Assembly: GCA_016935665.1 (NCBI GenBank)
Contig: JAFGQN010000055.1
Location: forward strand, 1-43,713
Direction of reading: 5' to 3'
Length of the DNA: 43,713 nt
From: Deltaproteobacteria bacterium
GTDB lineage: Bacteria > Myxococcota_A > Polyangia > JAAYKL01
The notes under the pieces are model-generated. The model did not search any database, was not told the DNA's origin, and saw only the letters and a program-made list of their open reading frames with translations. Numbering within the stretch: the first letter of the stretch is position 1; each line of letters begins with the position of its first letter. Shown in pieces: positions 27,487-43,645 of the stretch. The position numbers and the translations under genes are program-made.

Positions 27487-27796
27487 GAATCCTCCGTCTT
27501 CAACAGCATAACCACTACCGGATGTCGCCGCCGAAATTGTGTGATAAAGGGGGATGCAATTCGAGAATGTGCCATAAAAATCAACAATATGCGAGATACA
27601 GTAGGAGGGCTGGGTTGAGATGGGGGCCGACTCTTTTTTGAACATCGTGTTCTTGTGGCTGAAAAGAGGATGGAACAGTCTCTGAACACGATTTTTCTCA
27701 AAAAAAGTGACACATTTGGTCATGTCCTTTGTTTCAGCAGAAGACTATGCCGCCACCGGAGTATTGGTCGTCGATAACACAGGAGGAAATTATATA
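27487..27796. other. Divergent promoter region
   Basis: 310 bases between the divergently oriented duplicated-domain gene and the receptor gene. Both reading frames extend into it from their genes but show no coding character there, and strong ribosome-binding sites mark later starts on each side. No operator was recognised. Confidence 0.45.
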
Positions 27797-30496
27797 ATGA
27801 ATCGATTACTTCCAGGTCTATTACTTTTTAATGCGATTTGGCTGCATGCCATGGCAACTGCTGCAGCACAAAAGGTGCAGGATGAGTCACAGGCGACAGC
27901 GGATACAGTAAAGGACGCTGCCGACGCATCCTCTGCAGACGAGAATGCCATGGTTCCTCCGAAACTCATCACATATGTAGAAGCAGAGTATCCACCGGAG
28001 GCATTCGAAAAGGGCCTTCAGGCGGATGTGCTGGCCACGCTGGATATTGATGCGACAGGGAACGTGGTGGACGTGGAAATCAACGAGCCCGTCGGCAATG
28101 GATTTGATGAGGCAGCGAAAGCGGCCATGATGAAATTCAAATTTGAACCCGCCACTGTAAATGGCAAAGTGACCCCTTGCCTGCTTCAGTATCGGTATCG
28201 GTTTGTCTTGAAATATGAAACGCCGGCAGCCGCCGGCGAATCCGAAAACGACACGGATAGTGCTAAAACGTCCGGGGTGTCGGCCGTTGCGTTTCTGGGC
28301 GGCCGGGTAACCGACATGGACGAGAACGCTGTTGGAGACGCTTTGATTTACCTTTCGGGGCAGTTCAGTGATCCGGTGACTGGAGCAAAAACCACAGTGG
28401 ATAAAGAGGGCGTGACTGCTGAAGATGGCACGTTTCGCTTTACGGATTTGGCTTCGGGGATGTACGAAATCACAATTCAGGCGTCGGGCTATCAGATATA
28501 CTACGGCGGCGAGGAACTGATTCCGGGCGAAAGTAAGGACATCACTTATCGGTTGGTAAAGGAAACAACCGCGTATGAAGTTGTGGTCCGTGCCCGCCGT
28601 GAGCCGCGTTCGGTGACCCGCAGGGAAATCACCGCTTTGGAGATCACCAAACTTCCCGGTACTGACGGTGACGCGCTGCGGGCAGTGCAGAATATGCCGG
28701 GGACTGCCAGACCTTCGATGGGCGGCGGTGAAATTATCGTTCGCGGCAGTAAACATGCGGACAGTGGTTTCTATTACGACAACGTTGAAGCCCCATGGCT
28801 GTATCACTTTGGGGGGCTGACATCCGTGATCAATTCAGATTTGCTTGAAAACATCGATTTCTATCCAGGGAACTTTTCTGTGCGCTACGGAAGAGCCACA
28901 GGCGGCATCATTGACGTGCAGACCCGCGCGCCGAAATCGGACAGGTTTCACGGTTATATCGATGTGGACGTGTGGGATGCCAGTATTCTGCTTGAAGGTC
29001 CCGTGAGCAAAAACTGGTCGGTGGCGGTGTCCGGACGGCGCAGTTACATTGACGCCATTTTATCCAATATTGATTTTGGAGATGATTTCAAGATGAAGGC
29101 AGCGCCCAGATACTATGATTTTCAGCTGATTGCCGACTATCATCCCAATGACCGGAACAATCTGCGGCTGTTCTTTTTTGGCACAGATGACAAAATGATA
29201 TTCATATACGACAATGAGGAAAATCCCAATCGCGGCGGTGGCGATGATGTTCACCTGATGGCATACCAGGGGCAGCTGGAATGGAAGTATCAGTTCAGTG
29301 ACCGTATCTCAAACACACTTGATTTTGGCGTGGGCTACTGGGGGGGCAAAAACGCATATGGAAATTACGAAGAGAAATGGAATGTAGTACCGACGCTGCT
29401 TCGAGACGAACTGGGATTTAAAATATCAAAGGAACATGAGCTCTCCCTGGGGGTGGATATGAAGTTGGAATATGCCACCATCGATATGGCGGTTCCCGGC
29501 GACTACTACGTGGAGGGAAGCCCGGATTTCAACGATTCCGCACACGACAACAAGGTGTTCATTACTGGAAACCGCTTTGCCATTAAACCCGCTGTGTACA
29601 CGGAATACAAAAACACAATGATTCCCAGAACCACGTTGGTGCTCGGACTGCGGACGGACTATTTTGGGAATGTGGACAGATGGAGCGTGGATCCCCGATT
29701 TGCCGCCAGATACCAACTGTTTAAAAACACCACCGTAAAAACGGGAATAGGTCTGTTTCACCAGGCCCCCGACTACGCGGAAGGCGACAAAGACTATGGG
29801 AATCCAGACCTCGAGTTAACCCGTGCTTTGCATACCAGTCTTGGGATAGAGCAGAAACTGTCTGAAAATGTGGAACTGAGTGTGGAAGGATTTTACAAGA
29901 AACTGGACAATGTGGTTACCGCTTCCGACGATCCTCAAATACGCGATGGACAAATGGACATTGAGCGTTTCGACAATGAAGGCCGTGGTCATATCTGGGG
30001 AATGGAGGCAATGCTGAAACACAATCCCACAGACAGATTCTTTGGCTGGGTTTCATACACGCTCATGAAATCCATTCGGAAAGATGGCGCGAATGAACCA
30101 TGGCGGACATTTGATAAGGACCAGAGGCACGTGCTTAACGCGGTGGGCACCCTCAATCTGGGCAGAGGCTACAGTATTGGTTTGCGTTTCCGTTTGGTAT
30201 CGGGTGATCCTTATACACCGGTGACAGGTGGCATTTATGACGCGGATAGTGATAACTACACACCTGTGTACGGCAAAGTGAATTCGAAGCGCATGGCCAT
30301 GTTTCATCAGCTCGATGTTCGATTTGATAAAAAATGGCAATGGACACATTTAGCGCTCACAGCCTATCTCGATGTAAAGAATGTGTACAATCACCAAAAT
30401 CCCGAATTTCCGGTTTACAGCAGTGACTTTTCCGAAAAGGACTGGTTGACCGGCCTTCCCATTCTTCCCAGCGTGGGCGTAAAACTGGAGTACTGA
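27797..30496 (+). CDS. TonB-dependent receptor with its own N-terminal TonB-like domain
   Basis: An 899-residue outer-membrane receptor. The start at 27797 follows AGGAGG by ten bases and opens a signal peptide (LLPGLLLFNAIWLHAMATAAA). About 54-139 resemble a TonB C-terminal domain (PPKLITYVEAEYPPEAFEKG, then FDEAAKAAMMKFKFEPATVNG). About 167-255 are a carboxypeptidase-regulatory-like beta domain (GGRVTDMDENAVGDALIYL, ASGMYEITIQASGYQ). The plug (about 270-380) has ALRAVQNMPGTARPS, EIIVRGSKHADSGFY and GRATGGIIDVQTR; the barrel follows. It is coupled to the lipoprotein gene two bases downstream. The ligand is not known; nearby xylanolytic genes suggest oligosaccharides, as inference. Confidence 0.85.
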   Translation: MNRLLPGLLLFNAIWLHAMATAAAQKVQDESQATADTVKDAADASSADENAMVPPKLITYVEAEYPPEAFEKGLQADVLATLDIDATGNVVDVEINEPVGNGFDEAAKAAMMKFKFEPATVNGKVTPCLLQYRYRFVLKYETPAAAGESENDTDSAKTSGVSAVAFLGGRVTDMDENAVGDALIYLSGQFSDPVTGAKTTVDKEGVTAEDGTFRFTDLASGMYEITIQASGYQIYYGGEELIPGESKDITYRLVKETTAYEVVVRARREPRSVTRREITALEITKLPGTDGDALRAVQNMPGTARPSMGGGEIIVRGSKHADSGFYYDNVEAPWLYHFGGLTSVINSDLLENIDFYPGNFSVRYGRATGGIIDVQTRAPKSDRFHGYIDVDVWDASILLEGPVSKNWSVAVSGRRSYIDAILSNIDFGDDFKMKAAPRYYDFQLIADYHPNDRNNLRLFFFGTDDKMIFIYDNEENPNRGGGDDVHLMAYQGQLEWKYQFSDRISNTLDFGVGYWGGKNAYGNYEEKWNVVPTLLRDELGFKISKEHELSLGVDMKLEYATIDMAVPGDYYVEGSPDFNDSAHDNKVFITGNRFAIKPAVYTEYKNTMIPRTTLVLGLRTDYFGNVDRWSVDPRFAARYQLFKNTTVKTGIGLFHQAPDYAEGDKDYGNPDLELTRALHTSLGIEQKLSENVELSVEGFYKKLDNVVTASDDPQIRDGQMDIERFDNEGRGHIWGMEAMLKHNPTDRFFGWVSYTLMKSIRKDGANEPWRTFDKDQRHVLNAVGTLNLGRGYSIGLRFRLVSGDPYTPVTGGIYDADSDNYTPVYGKVNSKRMAMFHQLDVRFDKKWQWTHLALTAYLDVKNVYNHQNPEFPVYSSDFSEKDWLTGLPILPSVGVKLEY

Positions 30497-31799: not shown

Positions 31800-32025
31800 T
31801 TCTTTTGTTCCTTGCGAAACAAACACCAACCACGGGCAGGCAAAATGAAAACGCGCTGACTGACAGGGGATGTTTTTAAGCCATAATTGTATCGAAACCA
31901 CAGCATCAGGTACTCTTTTTTCAGGCTTCGTGTGTTTATGTAAACAGCACACGGGATTATCATCATTCCAGCTTTGCTGATAAGTCGTGTTTGAGCACCG
32001 TTTGAGCATGGGGAGACAAAAAAAA
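31800..32025. other. Intergenic stretch before the Tat lipoprotein gene
   Basis: 226 bases with no gene evident. An open frame crosses the last part (from 31987) but the strong GGGGAG at 32010-32015 marks a start at 32026. Confidence 0.45.
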
Positions 32026-33174
32026 ATGAGTATCAGCAAGATCCGGATGACAACACAGTCCATGTCACGCAGGGGGTTTATCAGGAAGTCGGTTACAGTT
32101 GGCGGCATTACACTTTGCGCTGCGGCGTTGGGCGCTGGATGCAGCGTTCCCCGTTGGCGACATGCGGTGAGAGATATTCGTAGACCACCGGTGATTTCCA
32201 ATGAGAAGCGACAGCTGTTCACTGAACTCGTTCGGATGGGCACCCTCGCTTCCAATAGTCATAATGCCCAGGCATGGACGTTCGCGATAGACGAAGAAGG
32301 CATTTCAATTTTTCCGGATTTCAGCCGCAGCCTGCCTGTGGTTGATCCAACGTATCATCATCTATTCGTGAGCCTGGGCTGTGCGGCGGAAAACATTGTA
32401 CAGGCAGCGCCATCGCTGGGCTTTCAACCAATTGTAAACGTGAGCGACAGTTCTGGAACGAAGCATATCCGAATTGCTTTACAAAAGAACAAGGCCACCC
32501 ACGAAAACATGGCGCTAACCATTCCCAAACGCAGTTGCAGTCGTTCCACCTACGATGGCAACAGCGTTGGTCGCCTTGCATTGGCCAGACTGGCAGGGGC
32601 CGCTGATGACGATGTAAACATCGATCTTTTATTCCATCCCAAAGAGCTGACTGCCGTGAGCGAACTGGTGATCGCCGCCAATACCTGCCAGGTAAATAAT
32701 GCGGCATATCGCGAGGAACTCAAATCCTGGATTCGCTTCAACAAACGGCAGGCCTATTATACCCGTGACGGTATTTTTGCAGCGGCATCCGGTTCGCCGA
32801 CCGCTCCGCCCTGGATAGCACGACTGGTTTTTGACCGTGCGTATACCGCAAAAAATGAGAACGAAAAACTGCGCGCACAAATGGCGTCGACACCCTGTGT
32901 TGGCGTATTTACAGTAAAAGGAAATACGTGGAAAGATTGGATAAACGTGGGGCGTGTCTGTCAACGCCTTTCGTTGTATGCCACTGCGATGAATATCGCT
33001 CACGCGCATGTGAATCAACCCATTGAAGTGTCATCTGTGCGTCGGAGGCTGGCCAGTCTGCTGGGCCGCAGCGGTTCGTACCCCGACCTTGTGATGCGTA
33101 TCGGATATGGACCGTCCATGCCGCGTTCCCTGCGCCGCCCCGTACACGATGTCCTGCAGTCCCCCGTCACCTGA
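32026..33174 (+). CDS. Tat-exported nitroreductase-like (Acg-type) lipoprotein
   Basis: A 382-residue protein. The twin-arginine motif SRRGFIRK (Arg15-Arg16) is followed by a hydrophobic segment and a lipobox ALGAGC (Cys39), predicting a folded, cofactor-bearing lipoprotein exported by Tat. The body resembles the nitroreductase/Acg fold: RMGTLASNSHNAQAWTFAI near 75-93 (the SHNxQ flavin loop) and VGRVCQRLSLYATAMNIAHAH near 305-325. FMN binding is likely. GGGGAG lies ten bases upstream of the ATG. It may be a redox enzyme; substrate unknown. It lies between the receptor pair and the GH62 gene on the same strand but 166 bp apart from the latter. Confidence 0.7.
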   Translation: MSISKIRMTTQSMSRRGFIRKSVTVGGITLCAAALGAGCSVPRWRHAVRDIRRPPVISNEKRQLFTELVRMGTLASNSHNAQAWTFAIDEEGISIFPDFSRSLPVVDPTYHHLFVSLGCAAENIVQAAPSLGFQPIVNVSDSSGTKHIRIALQKNKATHENMALTIPKRSCSRSTYDGNSVGRLALARLAGAADDDVNIDLLFHPKELTAVSELVIAANTCQVNNAAYREELKSWIRFNKRQAYYTRDGIFAAASGSPTAPPWIARLVFDRAYTAKNENEKLRAQMASTPCVGVFTVKGNTWKDWINVGRVCQRLSLYATAMNIAHAHVNQPIEVSSVRRRLASLLGRSGSYPDLVMRIGYGPSMPRSLRRPVHDVLQSPVT

Positions 33175-33340: not shown

Positions 33341-34708
33341 ATGAAAAATAATTTGTTTTTGTTAATGCTGGTTTTGGGTTTCAGCGCATTGATGTTTGGA
33401 TGCGGCGACGAATCCGGTAGCGGTGGCTCGGATGCGGATTCCGATGGCGATACGGATGGCGACAGCGATGGGGATTCAGACTCCGACAGCGATACGGATG
33501 GGGATAGTGATACGGATGGGGACTCTGACACGGATGGAGATACTGATACGGACGGCGACACGGACACCGATGGCGATACCGATGGTGATTCGGATGGCGA
33601 GGCCTGTCCGAACGTTTGCGTTGCCCAGGGCGCGTGCAGAGATCTGAATGGGACACGTGTTGATGGATACACCTGTCCGGATGCCACTCCAGTTTGCTGC
33701 GATGCCCCAGGCACCACAGACGGCGATACGGATACAGATGGTGACACGGATGGCGACACGGATGGCGACAGCGATGGCGATACCGATACGGGAGAAGACA
33801 AGGTTTGTGAGCTGAAGGCGCCCCTGAAATGGACATCCACCGGAGCGATTATCTCCCCCAAAAACGCCGGGGATAAATCCATCAAAGACCCGACCATCAT
33901 TCGCTACGAAGATGAATATCACGTGTTTGCCACAGTGAATGATGGCAACTGGCAATCTGTATGGCTGACATTTGATGACTTCAGCCAGGCAAAAGATGCG
34001 GAGCAGGTTCCCATGGACAATTGGGCTACACGCGGCATGGTGGCGCCTCAGATTCTGTACTTTGAGCCTCAGAAGATGTGGTATCTCATTTCTCAGTGGC
34101 CTGCGAAATACGCTACCAATCCGGACATCAACAACCCCAATGGATGGTCCGCATCGAAACCACTTATGGCCGATGGGGAGCCCAAAAATACAATTGACGT
34201 TTGGGCCATTTGCGATGATGTCAACTGCTATCTGTTTTTCTCCAATGACTACGGCGATCTGTATCGGGTGAGCACTCCCATCGACAATTTCCCGAATTTC
34301 AAAGGCTCGGAAGCGAAAGTTATCATGCATGAGAACAATGCCGGGGACCTGTTTGAAGCCAGCAATGTGTATAAGATCAAAGGTCAGGACAAGTATCTGC
34401 TGATGGTGGAATGCTATGGCCCCAGGTATTTCAGGTCATGGACCGCAGACAGACTCGATGGCGAATGGACACCGTTGGCGGACACTAAGAACAATCCGTT
34501 TGCCGGTGCCGCCAACGTGGATTTCCCCGATGGAAAGTGGTCAGACGACATCAGTCACGGTGAGATGGTTCGCGCCGGTTACAATCAGAAAATGGAAATT
34601 GACTCCTGCAACATGCAGTTTCTCTATCAGGGCTACACACCACCATTCGATGGCGATTACGGCGCGATACCCTACAAGTTGGGACTCATCACGCGAGTGG
34701 TGGAATGA
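33341..34708 (+). CDS. Lipoprotein GH62 alpha-L-arabinofuranosidase with Asp-rich linkers
   Basis: A 455-residue enzyme predicted to cut arabinose side chains from arabinoxylan at the cell surface. Lipobox LMFGC (Cys21) is followed by an Asp-Ser/Gly/Thr linker (30-86), a six-Cys module (89-120; CPNVCVAQGACRDLN, then TCPDATPVCC), a second linker (127-151) and the GH62 domain (156-455). GH62 marks are LKWTSTGAIISPK, Asp183 (IKDPTI), Asp286 (IDVWAICDD), Glu339 (LFEASNVYK), NPFAGAANVDFP and DDISHGEMVRAGY. The three named acids match the base, pKa modulator and acid of characterised members. The start at 33341 follows GAGGG; upstream codons to 33281 look non-coding. It converges on the GH10 gene. 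GH62 outside fungi and actinobacteria is uncommon to my knowledge. Confidence 0.9.
   Translation: MKNNLFLLMLVLGFSALMFGCGDESGSGGSDADSDGDTDGDSDGDSDSDSDTDGDSDTDGDSDTDGDTDTDGDTDTDGDTDGDSDGEACPNVCVAQGACRDLNGTRVDGYTCPDATPVCCDAPGTTDGDTDTDGDTDGDTDGDSDGDTDTGEDKVCELKAPLKWTSTGAIISPKNAGDKSIKDPTIIRYEDEYHVFATVNDGNWQSVWLTFDDFSQAKDAEQVPMDNWATRGMVAPQILYFEPQKMWYLISQWPAKYATNPDINNPNGWSASKPLMADGEPKNTIDVWAICDDVNCYLFFSNDYGDLYRVSTPIDNFPNFKGSEAKVIMHENNAGDLFEASNVYKIKGQDKYLLMVECYGPRYFRSWTADRLDGEWTPLADTKNNPFAGAANVDFPDGKWSDDISHGEMVRAGYNQKMEIDSCNMQFLYQGYTPPFDGDYGAIPYKLGLITRVVE
33428..33598 (+). repeat. Asp-rich linker repeat, GH62 gene, first tract
   Basis: A run of 6-bp and 18-bp degenerate units of the type gatggcgatacggat that encodes [DSD/DGD/DTD] repeats with DxDxDG-like calcium motifs. 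Codon choice varies (gat/gac, tcg/agc), so it is old or selected at the protein level rather than freshly duplicated. Confidence 0.85.
33719..33793 (+). repeat. Asp-rich linker repeat, GH62 gene, second tract
   Basis: A shorter tract of the same type (DGDTDTDGDTDGDTDG) placed between the Cys-rich module and the catalytic domain. It duplicates the first linker in composition. Confidence 0.85.
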
Positions 34709-34757
34709 TTGCCATTTGCTTTACCTCCCCTGCTGATTCCGGCATTTAATCCCAGTT

Positions 34758-36065
34758 TTATTGATTGTAAGACTCGAGATATTCCATTAACCAAATCATG
34801 GCCGGGCGAAATTCGCCATCCCGTCTCACAAGGCCGCTGTCCGGCGCCATGCTCCAGGTCTGGCCGTAAATCCATCCCCAAAGCGTGATGCCTTTCACAT
34901 AATCCAGATTCATAAAGTAGGGGATGTACGTTTGGTAATATTCCAATTGCTCATCATCATCGGGCGTACTGATGTCCATTTCTGTGATATATACCGGCAG
35001 TCCTGTTTCACGATGCAGCCGCTCCAGCAGCGCGCTGGCCGTTTCGAATGTTACGGATTTGTGATCAAGGTCATGGGCCTGCACTCCAATGGCTTCGATG
35101 GGACCGCCACCTTTAAGAACAGTGTTAATCAGATCAATCTGATGACTGTTGTCTGCTTCCCATTCAATGTTGTTGTAGTCGTTTAAAATCAATACCGCAT
35201 TTGGGCATGCGTCTTTGGCCCATTTGAATGAGTTGATAATCCACATCCAGTCATCGCCTGTGCCGCCGCCAATATTGTTTGCAAACGTTAGGGTGGTGTG
35301 GGGCGGGGGTTCGTTGACCACATCGATGAGCCTGGTGTTGGGGAAGCGGTCGCAGAACAATGTCATCCACTCCCGGATTTCTTTTTCACCTACCGACGCC
35401 ATACTCGCTGGTGCGGCGCTGCCCCATATAAACGTATGCTCTTTAAAAAGGATGTTGTGATCTTCGGCATAGGCATAAATGGTATCCAGCGTGGCCCAAT
35501 TGTATGCGCCGCCGGCAACACTCAGTACAGAACCGAGCTTTCCAGCGTTCTCTGGAGTGACCTGTCCAAAGTAATCTGAAAAAACGAGTCCCTGATAGTC
35601 CAGATTGCCGCTGCCCCCGGTTGTTATATTGCCCAAAAACATGGCGGGGAAATGTGATGTTTCCATGTCACTTTCTGTCTCGGAATCGCTGTCCACATCG
35701 GAATCGCTGTCTGTCTCGGAATCGCTGTTTGCGTCGGAATCGCTATCCGCGTCAAAGTCGCCATCTGTATCGGAGTCGCCGTCTGAGTCCCCATCGCCAT
35801 CTGTATCGGAATCGCCATCGGAATCGCCGTCTGTATCGGAATCACTGTCTGCATCGGAACTGCCATCACCATCCGAGGCGCCATCGCCACGGGCATCTGA
35901 ACCGCTGTTCATGTGTGATTGTGTATCCCCATCGTCTATATCTCCATTGTTGAAATCATCCGTATCTGCTGGTTGACGCCTGTCGTTTGCTATCTCTGCT
36001 GTACCATGGCACCCCAATGCGAAATCGCCGCAAAACAACACCGCCCATAACAACATTGCACGCAT
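34758..36065 (-). CDS. Lipoprotein GH10 endo-beta-1,4-xylanase with Asp-rich linker
   Basis: A 435-residue enzyme predicted to cut the xylan main chain. A signal sequence with lipobox FALGC (Cys19) leads to a low-complexity segment with an Asp-Ser/Gly/Thr linker (about 60-136). The GH10 barrel follows (about 140-435). Family marks are [29 protein letters not shown], the acid/base Glu252 in [26 protein letters not shown], and the nucleophile Glu362 in VYITEMDIS, then [12 protein letters not shown]. It faces the GH62 gene tail to tail and lies 205 bp downstream of GH31 on the same strand. With GH62 and GH31 it makes a coherent surface set for arabinoxylan. Confidence 0.93.
35658..35885 (-). repeat. 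Asp-rich linker repeat, GH10 gene
   Basis: Degenerate 6-bp units encode alternating Asp with Ser, Gly, Thr or Ala (residues 61-136), again with DxDxDG-like motifs. The end nearest the catalytic domain changes to Glu and Thr ([11 protein letters not shown]). Confidence 0.85.
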
Positions 36066-36270
36066 GATTCTTCTCGCTTCCCCAACAGTCTGGGATATTA
36101 TCCGATATATATAGTCGGAAATTGGTTAACATTAAGTTCAATTACCGGATGGTTAGGCTCAGGAAAAACGAAGAAACAGTTGTTTTCGCCTATAAAAAAG
36201 AGCTCGACTCTGCCTCAGTCAGCTAGAAAAACTGAGTAATGACAGATTTGAGAGGAGGGACCAGGACGAT
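36066..36270. promoter_or_regulatory. Upstream region of the GH10 gene
   Basis: No gene. A near-palindrome CCGATATATATAGTCGG at 36102-36118 lies about 40 bases before the GH10 start and could be an operator or part of the core promoter. Nothing else stands out. Confidence 0.3.
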
Positions 36271-38943
36271 TTACTTTTCGCTGGATATCTTCACAGCAGT
36301 ATCCACATCTGTTTTGGAAATATACACCGTCAGCCGTTTTGCTCCCGAATCCCAAACGGCGCCGTTGCCGCTGTTGGGTGCGCCTGAACTTGTCGAAATC
36401 TCAGAACCATCCAGGTAGAGGGTGGGGGCTTCGGACAGACCGTGATACACAATCTGGTATGTACGGTTGGATGGGGCGCCTTCATAAGTACCCTTCGCAG
36501 CGCCGATTTCAACACCCAGATCATCCTGCGTGAAACGGATGTCGGTGCGTCGCGATTCGTCTTTGGTGCGGAATTTCTCGGTCACGCCATCGTCCTCATA
36601 CAGCGTGAATGACCCATCCGCACCCGTGTATATGTGTATAATCAGTTCATCGTTGGGAATAAAGAATGTGGATTTTGCATAAGGCGCCATGGGAATAACT
36701 CCGCCTTCTTTTACAAAAACCGGAATCTCGCCGGTAGCCGCGCGAATCTGCTCGGTGCGGTTGCCACTGAATTTGGTATCATCAAAGAAACTGTACCAGT
36801 TGCCTTCGGGCAGCCAAACGGAAACATTGTTGTTGCCATCGGAGAAATTGGGCGCTACCAGCATCTCGCTGCCCCACATATATTGCAAATCCTTTTCCCA
36901 TGCCGTGTCATTTTCCTGATCTTCGAGGAACATGGGGCGCGCCATGGGCATACCGGTGGCCTGCGCTATCCGCGCAAAGGAATAAATATACGGAATCATT
37001 TCATACCTGGTGGTAATGTATGTTTTGGCAGTCGCCTGACAGGTGGCATTGCGCTGCAGTGGCCATCGGGGGTGCCCGGGACCATGGGGTTTCCAAATGG
37101 GAGTGAAGCTGCCAAACGCCATATCCCACTGACGATAAAGATTGTCTTCGTTTACTGTTACGTTAAAGTGGCCGCCCGCGTCGTGGTTGTAGTAGGGGAA
37201 TCCACAAATCCCCGATGATTGCATGGCCTTCACCTGGTAGGTCATGTCGCTCCAGTTGCTATCCAAATCGCCGCTCCAGTGGGCGCCCCAGCGCTGTGCA
37301 CCGGCAGTAATGCCACGACTCCAGAAATAGGGGCGTTTGGCTTCGCCGATGGCTTCATCCCATCCTTCCTTCACACAGGATTTCTGCAGGTTCAGGTGGT
37401 AGTTGATGGATTCTTCCGCCCAGCTTTTGCCGCTGAACATTTTGGTGCTGTGCGCATGATCGGGGTAATCGAATTCATCCAGCCAGATGGCATCCCCGGG
37501 ATACCCTTTTGCGGGATTAAACGCATTGTCCCAGAACAAATCCCAAATCCATTCTCTGGTTGCCGGGTTTGTGAAGTCCGGACAGTCATTGGCCCCCGAA
37601 ATGGCGTAACTGTTGTTCCAACTTGGATTGAGTGGAATGCCGGGTCGGTTGAGGTCCAGCGTCACCGTTACACCGTTCTCATCACACCACTTTTTGTAAG
37701 CGGCGGGATCGGGGAAGCGGTCTTTGCGCCACTCAAACCACGAGTTTTTCTGTCCGGAGGTCGATTCGTTGGACGCGCGCCAGGCGTTGTCGTTTACCTG
37801 ATGATCAAAGGCAAACCCGGCGTTGCGGTGGTCTGTAATCATCTTTTTCCACCATTGCTCGCCGTTGTTGTTGGGGTCGGATTTGTCTGAGAGATGGAGT
37901 CCAAAAAGCGATTTTTGCGGCATTCTTGGCCGTCCGGTCAATTGGGTATAACGGTCAATTACCTGGGTGATTTTGGGGCCGGCAATAAAAAAGTAATCCA
38001 TCTGTCCGCCGAACCCTTCGCCATCGATGTTTAAGGAGTAATTATTGTTTTTGTTCAGACTGATGGTGTGCGTAAAGGTTGTGTTGAGAAAAACACCGTA
38101 ACCGCGTGAAGAAACGAAGAACGGCGCCACCAGCGCGCCTTCGCTGCCATGGGCCACTTTCAGGCTGGTGCCTGCCCTGTCCAGCTTGGGTACGCGCCCG
38201 TAAGCTTCGTGGCCCAGACCCGCGAAGTGTTCGCCGGAAACAGGCGTAAAATCAGCGTTAATGGTGTTGCCGCTCCAGCTGACCCCATCCTTTTCGGAGA
38301 GCATGGGTTCACCGCCATCGCGGGTTGAGAATGAAATGCGAATGGGATCCTTTTGCACCGTCACCGACACCCCATCAGGGGCCACGGTCGACAACGTCAC
38401 TGATGAGTCCGATTCCTCGATGTTCAAGCCGGCATCCCAGTCGTGTTTTGCCACCATTTCATATCGTTCATTGGGGTAAAATTCTTCCCCATCTTTTTTC
38501 ACCTGTACGCGCACCATGTAGTGTCCATAGGCAGTAATGCGAACAGTTTGTCCTGTTGTCCCGGTGATTTCGTAGCTCTTATCTTCCGGCTCCGGCGGGA
38601 GTTCCGTGTCCGTATCGCCGTCCGAATCGCCATCCCCGTCCCCATCTGAGTCCCCATCGGCATCGCTATCGCCGTCGCCATCGCTATCGCTATCGCCGTC
38701 GGCATCGCTATCGCCGTCGGCATCGCCGTCGCCATCGCTATCGCCGTCGCCATCGACGTCGGTATCGCCATCGCTGTCTGAATCGCTGTCACTGTCGGCG
38801 TCCGACGAATCAAAATCGCTCTCTGTATCGGTGCCCCCTGAGCTTTTGCCCGATGAACATGCCATCACCAGTCCCATAATGGCCAGCGGCACCCAATGCC
38901 AGTGACGTAAGTTTCGCGTTGGTTCAAAAATCTCTGGTGTCAT
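36271..38943 (-). CDS. Lipoprotein GH31 alpha-glycosidase with Asp-rich linker
   Basis: An 890-residue enzyme of family GH31. Lipobox GLVMAC (Cys29), Ser/Gly stretch, Asp-rich linker (about 38-113), a beta-sandwich N-domain, the catalytic barrel and C-terminal beta domains. The likely nucleophile is Asp489 in DAIWLDEFDYPDH and the acid/base Asp559 in GAHWSGDLDSNWSDM. Other marks are RPRMPQKSLFGLHLSDK and the late PVFVKEGGVIPMAPYA. GH31 holds alpha-glucosidases, alpha-xylosidases, alpha-galactosidases and others; alpha-xylosidase would suit xylan or xyloglucan side chains but the sequence does not settle it. AAGGA precedes the ATG. The gene leads the minus-strand pair GH31-GH10. Confidence 0.88.
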   Translation of the reverse strand: MTPEIFEPTRNLRHWHWVPLAIMGLVMACSSGKSSGGTDTESDFDSSDADSDSDSDSDGDTDVDGDGDSDGDGDADGDSDADGDSDSDGDGDSDADGDSDGDGDGDSDGDTDTELPPEPEDKSYEITGTTGQTVRITAYGHYMVRVQVKKDGEEFYPNERYEMVAKHDWDAGLNIEESDSSVTLSTVAPDGVSVTVQKDPIRISFSTRDGGEPMLSEKDGVSWSGNTINADFTPVSGEHFAGLGHEAYGRVPKLDRAGTSLKVAHGSEGALVAPFFVSSRGYGVFLNTTFTHTISLNKNNNYSLNIDGEGFGGQMDYFFIAGPKITQVIDRYTQLTGRPRMPQKSLFGLHLSDKSDPNNNGEQWWKKMITDHRNAGFAFDHQVNDNAWRASNESTSGQKNSWFEWRKDRFPDPAAYKKWCDENGVTVTLDLNRPGIPLNPSWNNSYAISGANDCPDFTNPATREWIWDLFWDNAFNPAKGYPGDAIWLDEFDYPDHAHSTKMFSGKSWAEESINYHLNLQKSCVKEGWDEAIGEAKRPYFWSRGITAGAQRWGAHWSGDLDSNWSDMTYQVKAMQSSGICGFPYYNHDAGGHFNVTVNEDNLYRQWDMAFGSFTPIWKPHGPGHPRWPLQRNATCQATAKTYITTRYEMIPYIYSFARIAQATGMPMARPMFLEDQENDTAWEKDLQYMWGSEMLVAPNFSDGNNNVSVWLPEGNWYSFFDDTKFSGNRTEQIRAATGEIPVFVKEGGVIPMAPYAKSTFFIPNDELIIHIYTGADGSFTLYEDDGVTEKFRTKDESRRTDIRFTQDDLGVEIGAAKGTYEGAPSNRTYQIVYHGLSEAPTLYLDGSEISTSSGAPNSGNGAVWDSGAKRLTVYISKTDVDTAVKISSEK
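38605..38832 (-). repeat. Asp-rich linker repeat, GH31 gene
   Basis: Degenerate 6-bp units (gatggcgatagcgatgccga type) encode 38-113 of the GH31 lipoprotein, with many Gly-Asp-Gly-Asp steps. It is the longest of the four tracts and closest to the Asp-Gly extreme. Confidence 0.85.
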
Positions 38944-40694: not shown

Positions 40695-42482
40695 ATGAAA
40701 ATGACGCTCCCTCCTGCTTTTGTCTTTGCCGTCATGGTGGCAGTAGGATTTACACGCGCTGTTATCGCCAGCGAGATTGACTCCCAAAATGGGAATCAAC
40801 GCAGTGGCATCGCAGAACTTAACGAAAGTACATACTTTTTTGCTCTTCTCGTTGGATCAAATCTACCAGGTGACAATCAGGCGCCTCTACGATACGCCCA
40901 CCGGGATATGGCGCAAGTTCGCAACGTTCTCGTGGAAATCGGCAAGCATGCACCCGAACACATTCAGCAGCTCGCAGACCCTGGCAGCGATTCCCTTCAG
41001 GCGGCCCTCCTCAATGTAAAAAAACAAATGACCAGGTTGCCGGCATCCACACAAAGTCGATTTGTGTTTTATTATTCGGGTCACGCCAAATCCGATGCGC
41101 TGACGCTCGGGAACGAAGACATGCCCCTTGGCGTCCTGCGCCGCCTGTTGGAAGACATTCCCGCGTCTCAAAAAATCATCATTCTGGATGCCTGTCAATC
41201 GGGCAGCTTTTCCAGAATTAAAGGGGTGCAGCTGGCCGAAGATTTTTCCCACAATTCCCGCGCCAGTCTACAGACCCGGGGTACAGCGGTTTTGGCATCG
41301 TCCAGCGCCACTGAGCTGAGTCAGGAATCCGACTCCCTCGAAGGATCTGTTTTTACCCACAACCTGGTCAGCGGATTGCGTGGGGCTGCCGATTCCGATG
41401 CCAATGGTCGCGTGTCCCTGTTTGAAGCGTACGACTATGCCTATAACAATACTTTGGTGGCCACAGCCGATACACGGGTGGGCAAACAGCACGTCACGCT
41501 GGAGACCGACTTGAAAGGTACCGGCGAAACCACGCTGTCATGGCCCGAAGCGTCCAGCGCCAAACTGATTCTCCCCAAAGACGTGAAAGGAACCGTGGTT
41601 GTTTTCGAAGAGCGAACAAAAACCATTCACGCGGAAATACACAAAGCGGAAGGCAGCGATATTACCCTGGCTTTTGCCCCAGGCAAATACGGCGTCATGG
41701 TCACCGGAAGAAACCGTGCGCTTCACTGCAGCATTCAGCTCAAATCCAATACCGTCACCAAACTGAAAAAAGACAGCTGCCAAACCGCAAGGCTCAAATC
41801 CGGCGCTGCCAAACATGACAATACAAACACCCGAGGCAATCGAGAGTATTTCCGCTGGTCTCCGTTTGTGACAGCGCAGGTTGGCATGCAGTTTTTAAGA
41901 AGAGACAACTTCATTCGAACCCTGGAACATCTGGGATATCGCACTAGCGCCTTTAATACGAACCACAGAGGCGAGCTTGTTCCCTATTTTGAAGTGCTTG
42001 CCGGCTTGTCAGTCAATCGCTGTTTTTCTTTCGGTCTGCTTTATTCATCGCTGAACAGATTCACTTTTCGTGCTGATCACGGCTACAACAATTTTTCCCA
42101 AATCGTAGACAGACGGACATTTGAATGGTCGGGGTATCGTATCAATGCGCAGCTTCGTTTTCAGTATCCATTTCTTAAAGACCGTCTGATTCCCCATGTA
42201 TTTGTAGAGACCGGTCCAGGGGTGGTCAAACACCAATACAAAATGCAACAGATAAACAATGTCTCTTACTACGCGCATCCCATTACGATTGAGGGTGGAG
42301 AGCTCCGGCAAAAGGGCTGGGTCGTTGGCGGCGGCGTTGGTATTAATGTTCGCCTTTACAGGCAGCTGTGTGTAGCAGCTCAATGGAAATATCTGTTGGC
42401 GCCCATTTTAAGCAATATCTATTCCGAAAAGCAAAACGCCGGTGGATGGATTGCAACCGCAGGACTACGCATTGGTCTGTAG
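40695..42482 (+). CDS. Secreted caspase-like peptidase fused to a predicted outer-membrane barrel
   Basis: A 595-residue protein with a signal peptide (FAVMVAVGFTRAVIA). About 47-275 is a C14 caspase-like domain: FFALLVGSNLPGD, PLRYAHRDM, the catalytic His130 in FYYSGHAK and Cys167 in LDACQSGSF, then the strand RGTAVLASSSATELSQE. A middle segment (about 285-375) is beta-rich, like a PEGA-type domain. The last ~200 residues alternate as a barrel: FVTAQVGMQFLRR, FEVLAGLSVNRCFSFGLLYSS, RINAQLRFQYP, ending WIATAGLRIGL. Both catalytic residues are kept. Caspase folds prefer Arg/Lys or Asp sites; specificity is not clear. It precedes a lipoprotein gene and an ECF sigma gene. Confidence 0.8.
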   Translation: MKMTLPPAFVFAVMVAVGFTRAVIASEIDSQNGNQRSGIAELNESTYFFALLVGSNLPGDNQAPLRYAHRDMAQVRNVLVEIGKHAPEHIQQLADPGSDSLQAALLNVKKQMTRLPASTQSRFVFYYSGHAKSDALTLGNEDMPLGVLRRLLEDIPASQKIIILDACQSGSFSRIKGVQLAEDFSHNSRASLQTRGTAVLASSSATELSQESDSLEGSVFTHNLVSGLRGAADSDANGRVSLFEAYDYAYNNTLVATADTRVGKQHVTLETDLKGTGETTLSWPEASSAKLILPKDVKGTVVVFEERTKTIHAEIHKAEGSDITLAFAPGKYGVMVTGRNRALHCSIQLKSNTVTKLKKDSCQTARLKSGAAKHDNTNTRGNREYFRWSPFVTAQVGMQFLRRDNFIRTLEHLGYRTSAFNTNHRGELVPYFEVLAGLSVNRCFSFGLLYSSLNRFTFRADHGYNNFSQIVDRRTFEWSGYRINAQLRFQYPFLKDRLIPHVFVETGPGVVKHQYKMQQINNVSYYAHPITIEGGELRQKGWVVGGGVGINVRLYRQLCVAAQWKYLLAPILSNIYSEKQNAGGWIATAGLRIGL

Positions 42483-42513: not shown

Positions 42514-43182
42514 ATGAATAATGAGCTTTTAACACATATGACTATCAGCAAACACTTTTACCAAAACGCTATTTTTGTTGGTTTAATTCTCTACGCGCTA
42601 TTCTTGCCGGGATGCAGCGACGACTTTAATTCCGATAATTCGAATGATACACCATGGTCCTATGGATATGACGAAGGCGAACCTACACGGGCTTTCATTA
42701 ACGAATGGATCATTAACGAAGGCAGTGCGCGTGTCATCGATTTATGGCATTCGGGAGACGAAGGCATTCAGTTGGGCGCTGACCGATGCATTTTGTCAAC
42801 AAAGGTCAGCGGGGAAATGCATCGAGTTGAAATAGTGGCGCGGCTGGATAAGGGGGTTACTCTCAGAGCAGTGTTGGAAGGGGTTGCATATCTTCCGGAA
42901 TCAAAAGTCTCTGCTGGGGTAATAGATGATTCAGGAGACTATGCTGAGTTATTTAATATACATATGAAGAATGGGTTGACCTATGCTGATTCGTTTTGCC
43001 GCTATGCTTGTTTTCTGGAAAACCCAAACAATTATCTACTATGGCAGGCAGACGTCCCCATTGTGTTTTCTGCAAAACAGGGCGCTTCCCAGATCTTTAC
43101 AGAAAAAACCATGGAATACTGGCTAAATATCGTTAAGGAAGGTGAAGGTCAGTCCGTCATTGAGCGGATTTATTACTGGTAA
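42514..43182 (+). CDS. Lipoprotein of unknown function
   Basis: A 222-residue predicted lipoprotein: hydrophobic segment, lipobox FLPGC (Cys34), then an Asp/Asn/Ser-rich start (SDDFNSDNSNDTPW). The mature part appears beta-rich (VIDLWHSGDEGIQLGAD, MHRVEIVARLDKGVTLRAV) with a Cys pair SFCRYACF. I do not recognise the family. Start at 42514 chosen because TAGGAG lies nine bases upstream; another ATG is at 42538. It lies 31 bp after the caspase gene and two bases before the sigma start, so the three are probably one unit. Confidence 0.6.
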   Translation: MNNELLTHMTISKHFYQNAIFVGLILYALFLPGCSDDFNSDNSNDTPWSYGYDEGEPTRAFINEWIINEGSARVIDLWHSGDEGIQLGADRCILSTKVSGEMHRVEIVARLDKGVTLRAVLEGVAYLPESKVSAGVIDDSGDYAELFNIHMKNGLTYADSFCRYACFLENPNNYLLWQADVPIVFSAKQGASQIFTEKTMEYWLNIVKEGEGQSVIERIYYW

Positions 43183-43183
43183 T

Positions 43184-43645
43184 ATGCTGATACTCACCAC
43201 CGTTACAGACTGTTCACCCCATTGGCAGCGCCAAATCAAGACTCAGTATGACCAGTTTGGTCCCGCTTTGAGACGGCGTTGCGAGCGTGTGCTCCAAAAC
43301 ACACAGGATGCGCAGGATATTGTGCAGGAGCTTTTTATGGATATTTGGAACAAAAAACGAGGCGACCTCGATTTTCCGTACCTGTATGCAGCGGCAACCA
43401 ATCGATGCATTACTCAGTTGAGAAAACAGCATCGTCAACGGAACCTGCTTCAGACACGTGATCTCCTTACTGTTCCACCAGCACTTTTGCCTGACGATTC
43501 TCTCTTTTCGAGGCAATGTCTTGCTGAGATTGCCGCACGGCTCGATAAAACCAGCGGCGCCATTTTTATTTATCATTATCTCGACGAAATGACGCAGGAG
43601 GAAATTGGCGAAGTGACCGGCCTAAGTCCAATGCCGATCACTTAA
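43184..43645 (+). CDS. ECF-type sigma factor with cut-off recognition helix
   Basis: A 153-residue sigma-70 family protein. Region 2 is seen in NTQDAQDIVQELFMDIWNKK and LDFPYLYAAATNRCITQLRK (about 39-81). Region 4 begins around 105 and reaches EMTQEEIGEVTGLSPMPIT, where TAA (43643-43645) ends it inside the DNA-contacting helix. In the next frame the bases after it read AAG CGC CTG, giving KRL, which is where family members have it. One extra base near acttaag would explain this. It may be inactive, or an assembly error. Start at 43184, two bases after the lipoprotein stop; the frame is open earlier. Confidence 0.7.
   Translation: MLILTTVTDCSPHWQRQIKTQYDQFGPALRRRCERVLQNTQDAQDIVQELFMDIWNKKRGDLDFPYLYAAATNRCITQLRKQHRQRNLLQTRDLLTVPPALLPDDSLFSRQCLAEIAARLDKTSGAIFIYHYLDEMTQEEIGEVTGLSPMPIT

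Follow-up and report, generated by a model that had tools for sequence, protein, structure and literature searches.

Three neighbouring genes encode a GH62, a GH10 and a GH31 enzyme, each with an N-terminal Cys signal and an Asp-rich linker. Do they form a special arabinoxylan-degrading locus defined by this shared anchor, as the original prediction proposed? The window, that is, the whole stretch of DNA analysed, is a complete contig of 43,713 nucleotides (G000:C108) from a genome of 8.16 Mb in 249 contigs. Pfam matches confirmed that the three genes are immediate neighbours at 33341-38943 (PF03664, PF00331 and PF01055, respectively). Their features are listed by position.

33341..34708, + strand: GH62 alpha-L-arabinofuranosidase, putative lipoprotein, 455 aa (PF03664, 220 bits across the full profile, positions 1-272/272; solved relatives)
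33389..33403, + strand: GH62 lipobox L-M-F-G-C, +2 Gly (sequence)
33428..33598, + strand: GH62 first Asp-rich linker, SDADSDGDTDG... (sequence)
33605..33700, + strand: six-Cys mini-module CPNVCVAQGACRDLNGTRVDGYTCPDATPVCC in the GH62 protein (E 5.5e-13 to a module profile built with own-genome copies, this one included, so that module E-values in this genome are partly by construction)
33716..33787, + strand: GH62 second Asp-rich linker (computed coordinates)
33806..34612, + strand: GH62 catalytic domain, KDPT/DVWAICD/LFEASN kept (Pfam and alignments to solved relatives)
34758..36065, - strand: GH10 endo-xylanase, putative lipoprotein, 435 aa (PF00331, 149 bits; solved relatives)
34797..35585, - strand: GH10 catalytic domain (Pfam and alignments)
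34974-34985, - strand: GH10 catalytic Glu in TEMD (sequence)
35304-35315, - strand: GH10 catalytic Glu in NEPP (sequence)
35685..35858, - strand: GH10 Asp-rich linker (computed coordinates)
36009..36023, - strand: GH10 atypical lipobox F-A-L-G-C, Asp at -5, +2 His (sequence)
36271..38943, - strand: GH31 alpha-glycosidase, putative lipoprotein, 890 aa (PF01055, 153 bits, with PF21365, DUF5110 and PF13802)
36439..38547, - strand: GH31 N-terminal, TIM-barrel and C-terminal plus DUF5110 domains (Pfam)
38602..38805, - strand: GH31 Asp-rich linker (computed coordinates)
38857..38871, - strand: GH31 lipobox L-V-M-A-C, +2 Ser (sequence)

GH62 runs head-on into GH10, and only GH31 and GH10, separated by about 205 bases, share a strand. 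Because GH62 lies on the + strand, convergent with GH10 and GH31 on the - strand, a single operon for the three genes is ruled out. A promoter and terminator scan gave a signal near the chance level; co-regulation of the enzymes is presumed. Just upstream of GH62 (31987-33174) is a gene whose nitroreductase-like product bears a lipobox-like Cys as well as a twin-arginine-like motif.

The claim that all three proteins combine an N-terminal Cys signal and an Asp-rich linker with conserved catalytic acids was borne out by the sequences and alignments. GH62 has nine solved relatives (best E 5e-76), and its KDPT, DVWAICD and LFEASN motifs align with theirs. The best solved relative of GH10 is the xylanase 4pn2 (E 1e-45). 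The PF00331 match in GH10 misses the first 30 profile positions, and alignment with solved relatives shows that both the acid-base in VVNEPP and the nucleophile in ITEMD are kept. In GH31 the acid-base motif WSGD is present, and the nucleophile motif is WLDEFD, the classical W-x-D followed by E-F-D in place of M-N-E. The nucleophile was read from the classical motif, as the HMMER alignment is one residue out of register there. The closest solved structures of GH31 are entries for the Cellvibrio japonicus transglucosidase Agd31B (E 5e-55), with the YicI-type and Xyl31A xylosidases behind (E about 1e-38); this ranking is not decisive for substrate.

The lipoboxes are uneven when judged by eye with a PROSITE-type rule. 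That of GH31 is canonical and that of GH62 acceptable, whereas the Asp at -5 in GH10 would break the rule.

The (D[S/G/T/A..])n linkers found in all three proteins extend far beyond the locus. A DNA pattern of eight D-x dipeptides gave 4,602 overlapping matches in the genome, against 6 when the pattern was reversed. The genes were then sampled from 66 contig starts (1.06 Mb in total, with 897 longest-ORF genes), and 40/897 encode the linker, or about 300 when extrapolated to the whole genome. A strict lipobox script was passed by 30/40 linker genes, and most of the others are lipoprotein-like by eye. Residue-shuffled proteomes contained 0 Asp linkers, indicating that the linkers are not due to chance. 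Local uniqueness of the anchor is ruled out by these genome-wide matches and sampled genes. Pfam matches of linker proteins to TrAA12 (PF22807) were rejected as low-complexity artefacts because they cover the Asp linker wherever coordinates were given. A protein at 2-1702 of the window carries a different repeated linker (TETTAPD), suggesting that the genome has further types of low-complexity stalk. A literature search on acidic linkers in CAZymes found no matching report.

The idea that the anchor marks out a special, compact locus is therefore not supported, since about 300 proteins of the genome are estimated to carry it. Enzymes of the three families are also spread over many contigs, with 13 full GH10 genes, at least six GH62 genes and four GH31 genes, the last each on a different contig. 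Linker and lipoprotein-like signal occur together in 9/13 full-length GH10 genes, the atypical one of the window counted. Larger clusters of stalked CAZymes exist elsewhere. Eight lipobox and Asp-linker CAZymes or esterases lie together on one contig (G000:C114:601-20000), namely GH27, GH30, GH127, GDSL, GH2, GH43-CBM6, CE6 and GDSL. A xylan-type cluster of four on another (G000:C158:3784-12221) has GH11, a CE1-like esterase, GH43 and GH43 with Asp linkers. The GH62/GH10/GH31 locus is one example of what is likely a display strategy used across the genome, and the observation that drew attention to it is real and beyond chance.

Is the linker tied to polysaccharides, or is it a generic lipoprotein spacer of the family, with the locus a chance neighbourhood? 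The second reading carries some weight but is on balance doubtful. The linker pattern was searched in 13 other genomes of the family; it is very abundant (>1,000 matches) in 9, weaker in 2 and absent or nearly so in 2, and most other families of the class have little of it. Genome G003, from a related genus, has no close GH10 or GH62 and encodes 21 linker lipoproteins, none with a CAZyme domain. Linker alone therefore says nothing about polysaccharides.

The association with CAZymes within the own genome argues against a purely generic spacer. By Pfam, about 26/40 linker genes of the 1.06 Mb sample are carbohydrate-active or esterase genes. They include six GH43, two each of GH45, GH12, GH27, CE6-type and GDSL, and one each of GH2, GH3, GH11, GH30, GH88, GH127, pectate lyase, deacetylase, CE1-like and PETase-like. 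Strong CAZyme matches were found for 18/40 linker genes compared with 2/84 linker-less lipoproteins (p = 7e-9); the latter count covers the 25 families listed first, among which GH5 and GH6 were the sole CAZyme families of comparable strength. With the two cluster contigs left out, the comparison was 10/28 to 2/84 among the matches listed (p = 1e-5). No CAZyme family appeared among the 25 families listed first for 80 random genes. Since G003 carries the linker on lipoproteins without CAZyme domains, the linker probably serves the family's lipoproteins as a general stalk, one that is loaded with CAZymes in fibre-degrading members.

The recurrence of GH62 beside GH10 also argues against a chance neighbourhood. 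GH10 and GH62 are in tandem at a second site in the own genome (C210/L056). In G005, a genome of the same family, a GH62-CBM6 gene overlaps a GH10-CBM6 gene (L142). GH62 and GH10 are fused elsewhere in G005 in one 642-aa ORF, whose 5' end is cut by the contig (L143:6286-8211), adjoining GH43-CBM6 and GH30-type CBM6 genes. Because neighbourhood and fusion recur, these gene arrangements support GH62 and GH10 as a predicted arabinoxylan-active pair. The proposal of an arabinoxylan locus thus stands for this pair, but the role of GH31 is unproven. A role of GH31 on arabinoxylan is possible, by analogy, because a xylan-specific GH31 alpha-xylosidase, BACOVA_03422, occurs in B. ovatus (PMC4491172). 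Genome G040, from another family, encodes a GH31 72% identical to that of the window, whose signal is of the cleavable type and which has neither lipobox nor linker, and the GH62 proteins of its family are without Asp linker. The catalytic domains move independently of the stalk.

Taken together, the trio probably belongs to a genome-wide repertoire of outer membrane lipoprotein CAZymes on acidic stalks, with a substrate-binding module. Each enzyme would be made with a lipoprotein signal and lipidated at its N-terminal Cys. The disordered, highly acidic (D-[S/G/T/A])n stalk would then keep the catalytic domain off the membrane. GH10 would cut the arabinoxylan backbone, GH62 would take off arabinofuranosyl branches, and GH31 might remove an alpha-linked sugar, either xylose or glucose. 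The six-Cys module, placed on the stalk before the enzyme both in GH62 and in numerous other xylan enzymes of the genus, would bind substrate in the manner of a CBM.

Where the enzymes reside was examined with the sorting signals of other bacteria. The +2 residues are Gly (GH62), His (GH10) and Ser (GH31), as had been reported. An outer membrane location had been argued from them under the E. coli rule; the location still fits, but a deltaproteobacterial lineage should not be judged by that rule. In Myxococcus xanthus, an inner membrane location is associated with +2 Lys, and the extracellular matrix with +7 Ala (PMC3222651). GH62, GH10 and GH31 carry neither mark. By this rule an outer membrane location would fit all three enzymes, and the rule does not decide between the inner and outer face. 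The genome encodes LolA and, as revealed by a match to the GspD N0 domain, a type II secretion secretin domain. We consider an outer membrane location likely, and exposure on the outer face is the reading that we infer. The predicted lipid anchor and Asp stalk shared across unrelated folds, supported by signal and linker anatomy, likely represent a display strategy.

The enzymes might instead be lipoproteins of the inner membrane, or of the periplasmic face of the outer membrane, and trim oligosaccharides after their import; GH31 would then be a periplasmic alpha-xylosidase. To our knowledge no lipoprotein surface-export signal is known for the host's group, and BACOVA_03422 of the B. ovatus PUL-XylL is described as periplasmic (PMC4491172). 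Nevertheless, this arrangement seems unlikely. Linkers of 60-90 residues with a putative binding module would be most useful if turned towards the bulk polymer, the design is common to many endo-xylanases, and the +2 Lys that marks inner membrane proteins in M. xanthus (PMC3222651) is absent.

We also considered whether the Asp-rich segment mainly binds calcium, like TSP3/dockerin-type DxDxDG loops, or signals export, like the lipoprotein export signal (LES) of Bacteroidota, rather than acting as a spacer. The linkers contain many DxDxDG strings, and the LES is acidic, with K-(D/E)2, Q-A-(D/E)2 or SDDDD at +2 to +6 after the Cys (PMC5080379). No LES motif is present at +2 to +6 of GH62 (CGDESG), GH10 (CHGTAE) or GH31 (CSSGKS). 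A Bacteroidota-type acidic export signal was also rejected for the linker lipoproteins in general, as they show no clear excess of acidic residues at +2 to +6 compared with other lipoproteins. LES works directly behind the Cys, whereas the linker begins a median of 16.5 residues past it in the strict lipobox set. Furthermore, EF/TSP3 repeats have hydrophobic positions that are missing from the linkers. A calcium or export role as the main function seems unlikely.

What stands out most is not the trio but the stalk with the six-Cys module. The module, overlooked in the first reading, comprises 32 aa between the two Asp linkers of the GH62 protein. Its overall Cys spacing is C-x3-C-x3/5-C-x11/12-C-x5/6-CC, with two main subtypes (3-5-12-6-0 and 3-3-11/12-5/6-0). 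With the same profile at E up to 0.01, 39 copies were found in the own genome, 34 in the congener G001 and few in other genera of the family. A search of 379 genomes of the phylum, with up to 20 candidates scored per genome, placed the module at E 0.001 in family members and in one genome of another family only. There it precedes a GH88-family enzyme in a lipoprotein whose linker is rich in Gly/Ser/Thr and not Asp (L247:478-2094). Where hosts could be recognised, most are hemicellulases or esterases (GH10, GH11, GH62, GH54-type, CE15, CE6, GH43 and GH27), in tallies that count Pfam families, many hosts being without a Pfam domain. The GH11 protein of the four-gene xylan-type cluster is one host.

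Pfam gave no match over the module and thus no known CBM family. The best PDB profile match was eurocin, a fungal defensin (E 6e-4). An AlphaFold model is compact (pLDDT 85) with no evident binding site, Foldseek found no structural relative of this model, and one copy searched against plasmid records had no match. In G005, CBM6 occupies the slot that the six-Cys module fills elsewhere, which favours substrate binding over docking. The module is probably a small, lineage-specific carbohydrate-binding module that may help the enzymes grip their substrate, with docking as the main alternative. Module-only lipoproteins with 2, 3 or 4 modules exist, among them L187:2838-3467 (four modules) and L055:11134-11985 (three), both without catalytic domain. 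Although such proteins, and the sharing of the module among many enzymes, could suggest a cellulosome-like docking or assembly module with tandem-module lipoproteins as scaffolds, this is quite improbable given that scaffold candidates and enzymes bear the same module, unlike cohesin and dockerin, that no dockerin or cohesin is among the Pfam matches listed for linker and module proteins, and that CBM6 replaces the module in G005. More speculatively than the binding role itself, we propose that the six-Cys module defines a new CBM family, carried by lipid-anchored acidic-stalk hemicellulases and by tandem-module capture lipoproteins, in a SusD-independent system of surface glycan capture.

Parts of this design have counterparts elsewhere. 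Staphylococcal Sdr/Clf proteins use D-S dipeptide repeats as a projecting stalk; those are Gram-positive adhesins with a covalent C-terminal wall anchor, whereas here the predicted anchor is an N-terminal lipid and the cargo is enzymes. Pullulanase PulA is a lipid-anchored polysaccharide hydrolase that reaches the surface by type II secretion. It resembles the present putative lipoproteins as a lipid-anchored hydrolase, and a T2SS secretin domain is encoded here, but PulA has Asp at +2. Cellulosomes differ in their dockerins and cohesins, absent here among the Pfam matches listed. Small disulphide-rich modules joined by a flexible linker to glycoside hydrolases are known from CBM1, CBM14, CBM18 and algal GH9 Cys-rich modules (PMC6032398). 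The six-Cys module is without a Pfam match, and its Cys spacing was not matched to any of these. DUF1735 is a proposed spacer between membrane and enzyme in Bacteroidota CAZymes and a named domain exclusive to that phylum (PMC11216935); here the spacer is a low-complexity acidic linker.

Gram-negative surface degradation of polysaccharides is known mainly from the Sus systems of Bacteroidota. In the B. ovatus PUL-XylL, surface GH10 and debranching enzymes are likewise combined, with GH31 alongside xylan enzymes (PMC4491172). The reported absence of a SusD-type protein is supported for the one SusD family searched, PF07980, which had no match in the genome and was positive in a Bacteroides control. 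There is also no SusC/D pair beside the genes, the enzymes are scattered over many contigs, and the anchor stalk differs. An uncultured deltaproteobacterial lineage thus appears to do the same job without SusD, using a simple, reusable leader of lipobox and acidic stalk that appears to precede dozens of enzyme folds unrelated to one another. Should the six-Cys module prove to bind xylan, it would count as a new, minimal type of binding module. With so many natural cargoes, export of surface lipoproteins in the host's group becomes testable.

Two other regions of the window were noted. A 929-aa protein at 27707-30493 has a TonB C-terminal domain followed by a carboxypeptidase-regulatory domain and a TonB-dependent receptor plug. 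A caspase-domain protein (PF00656) is encoded at 40695-42479, followed by a small ORF and a gene for a sigma-70-type factor (43142-43645).
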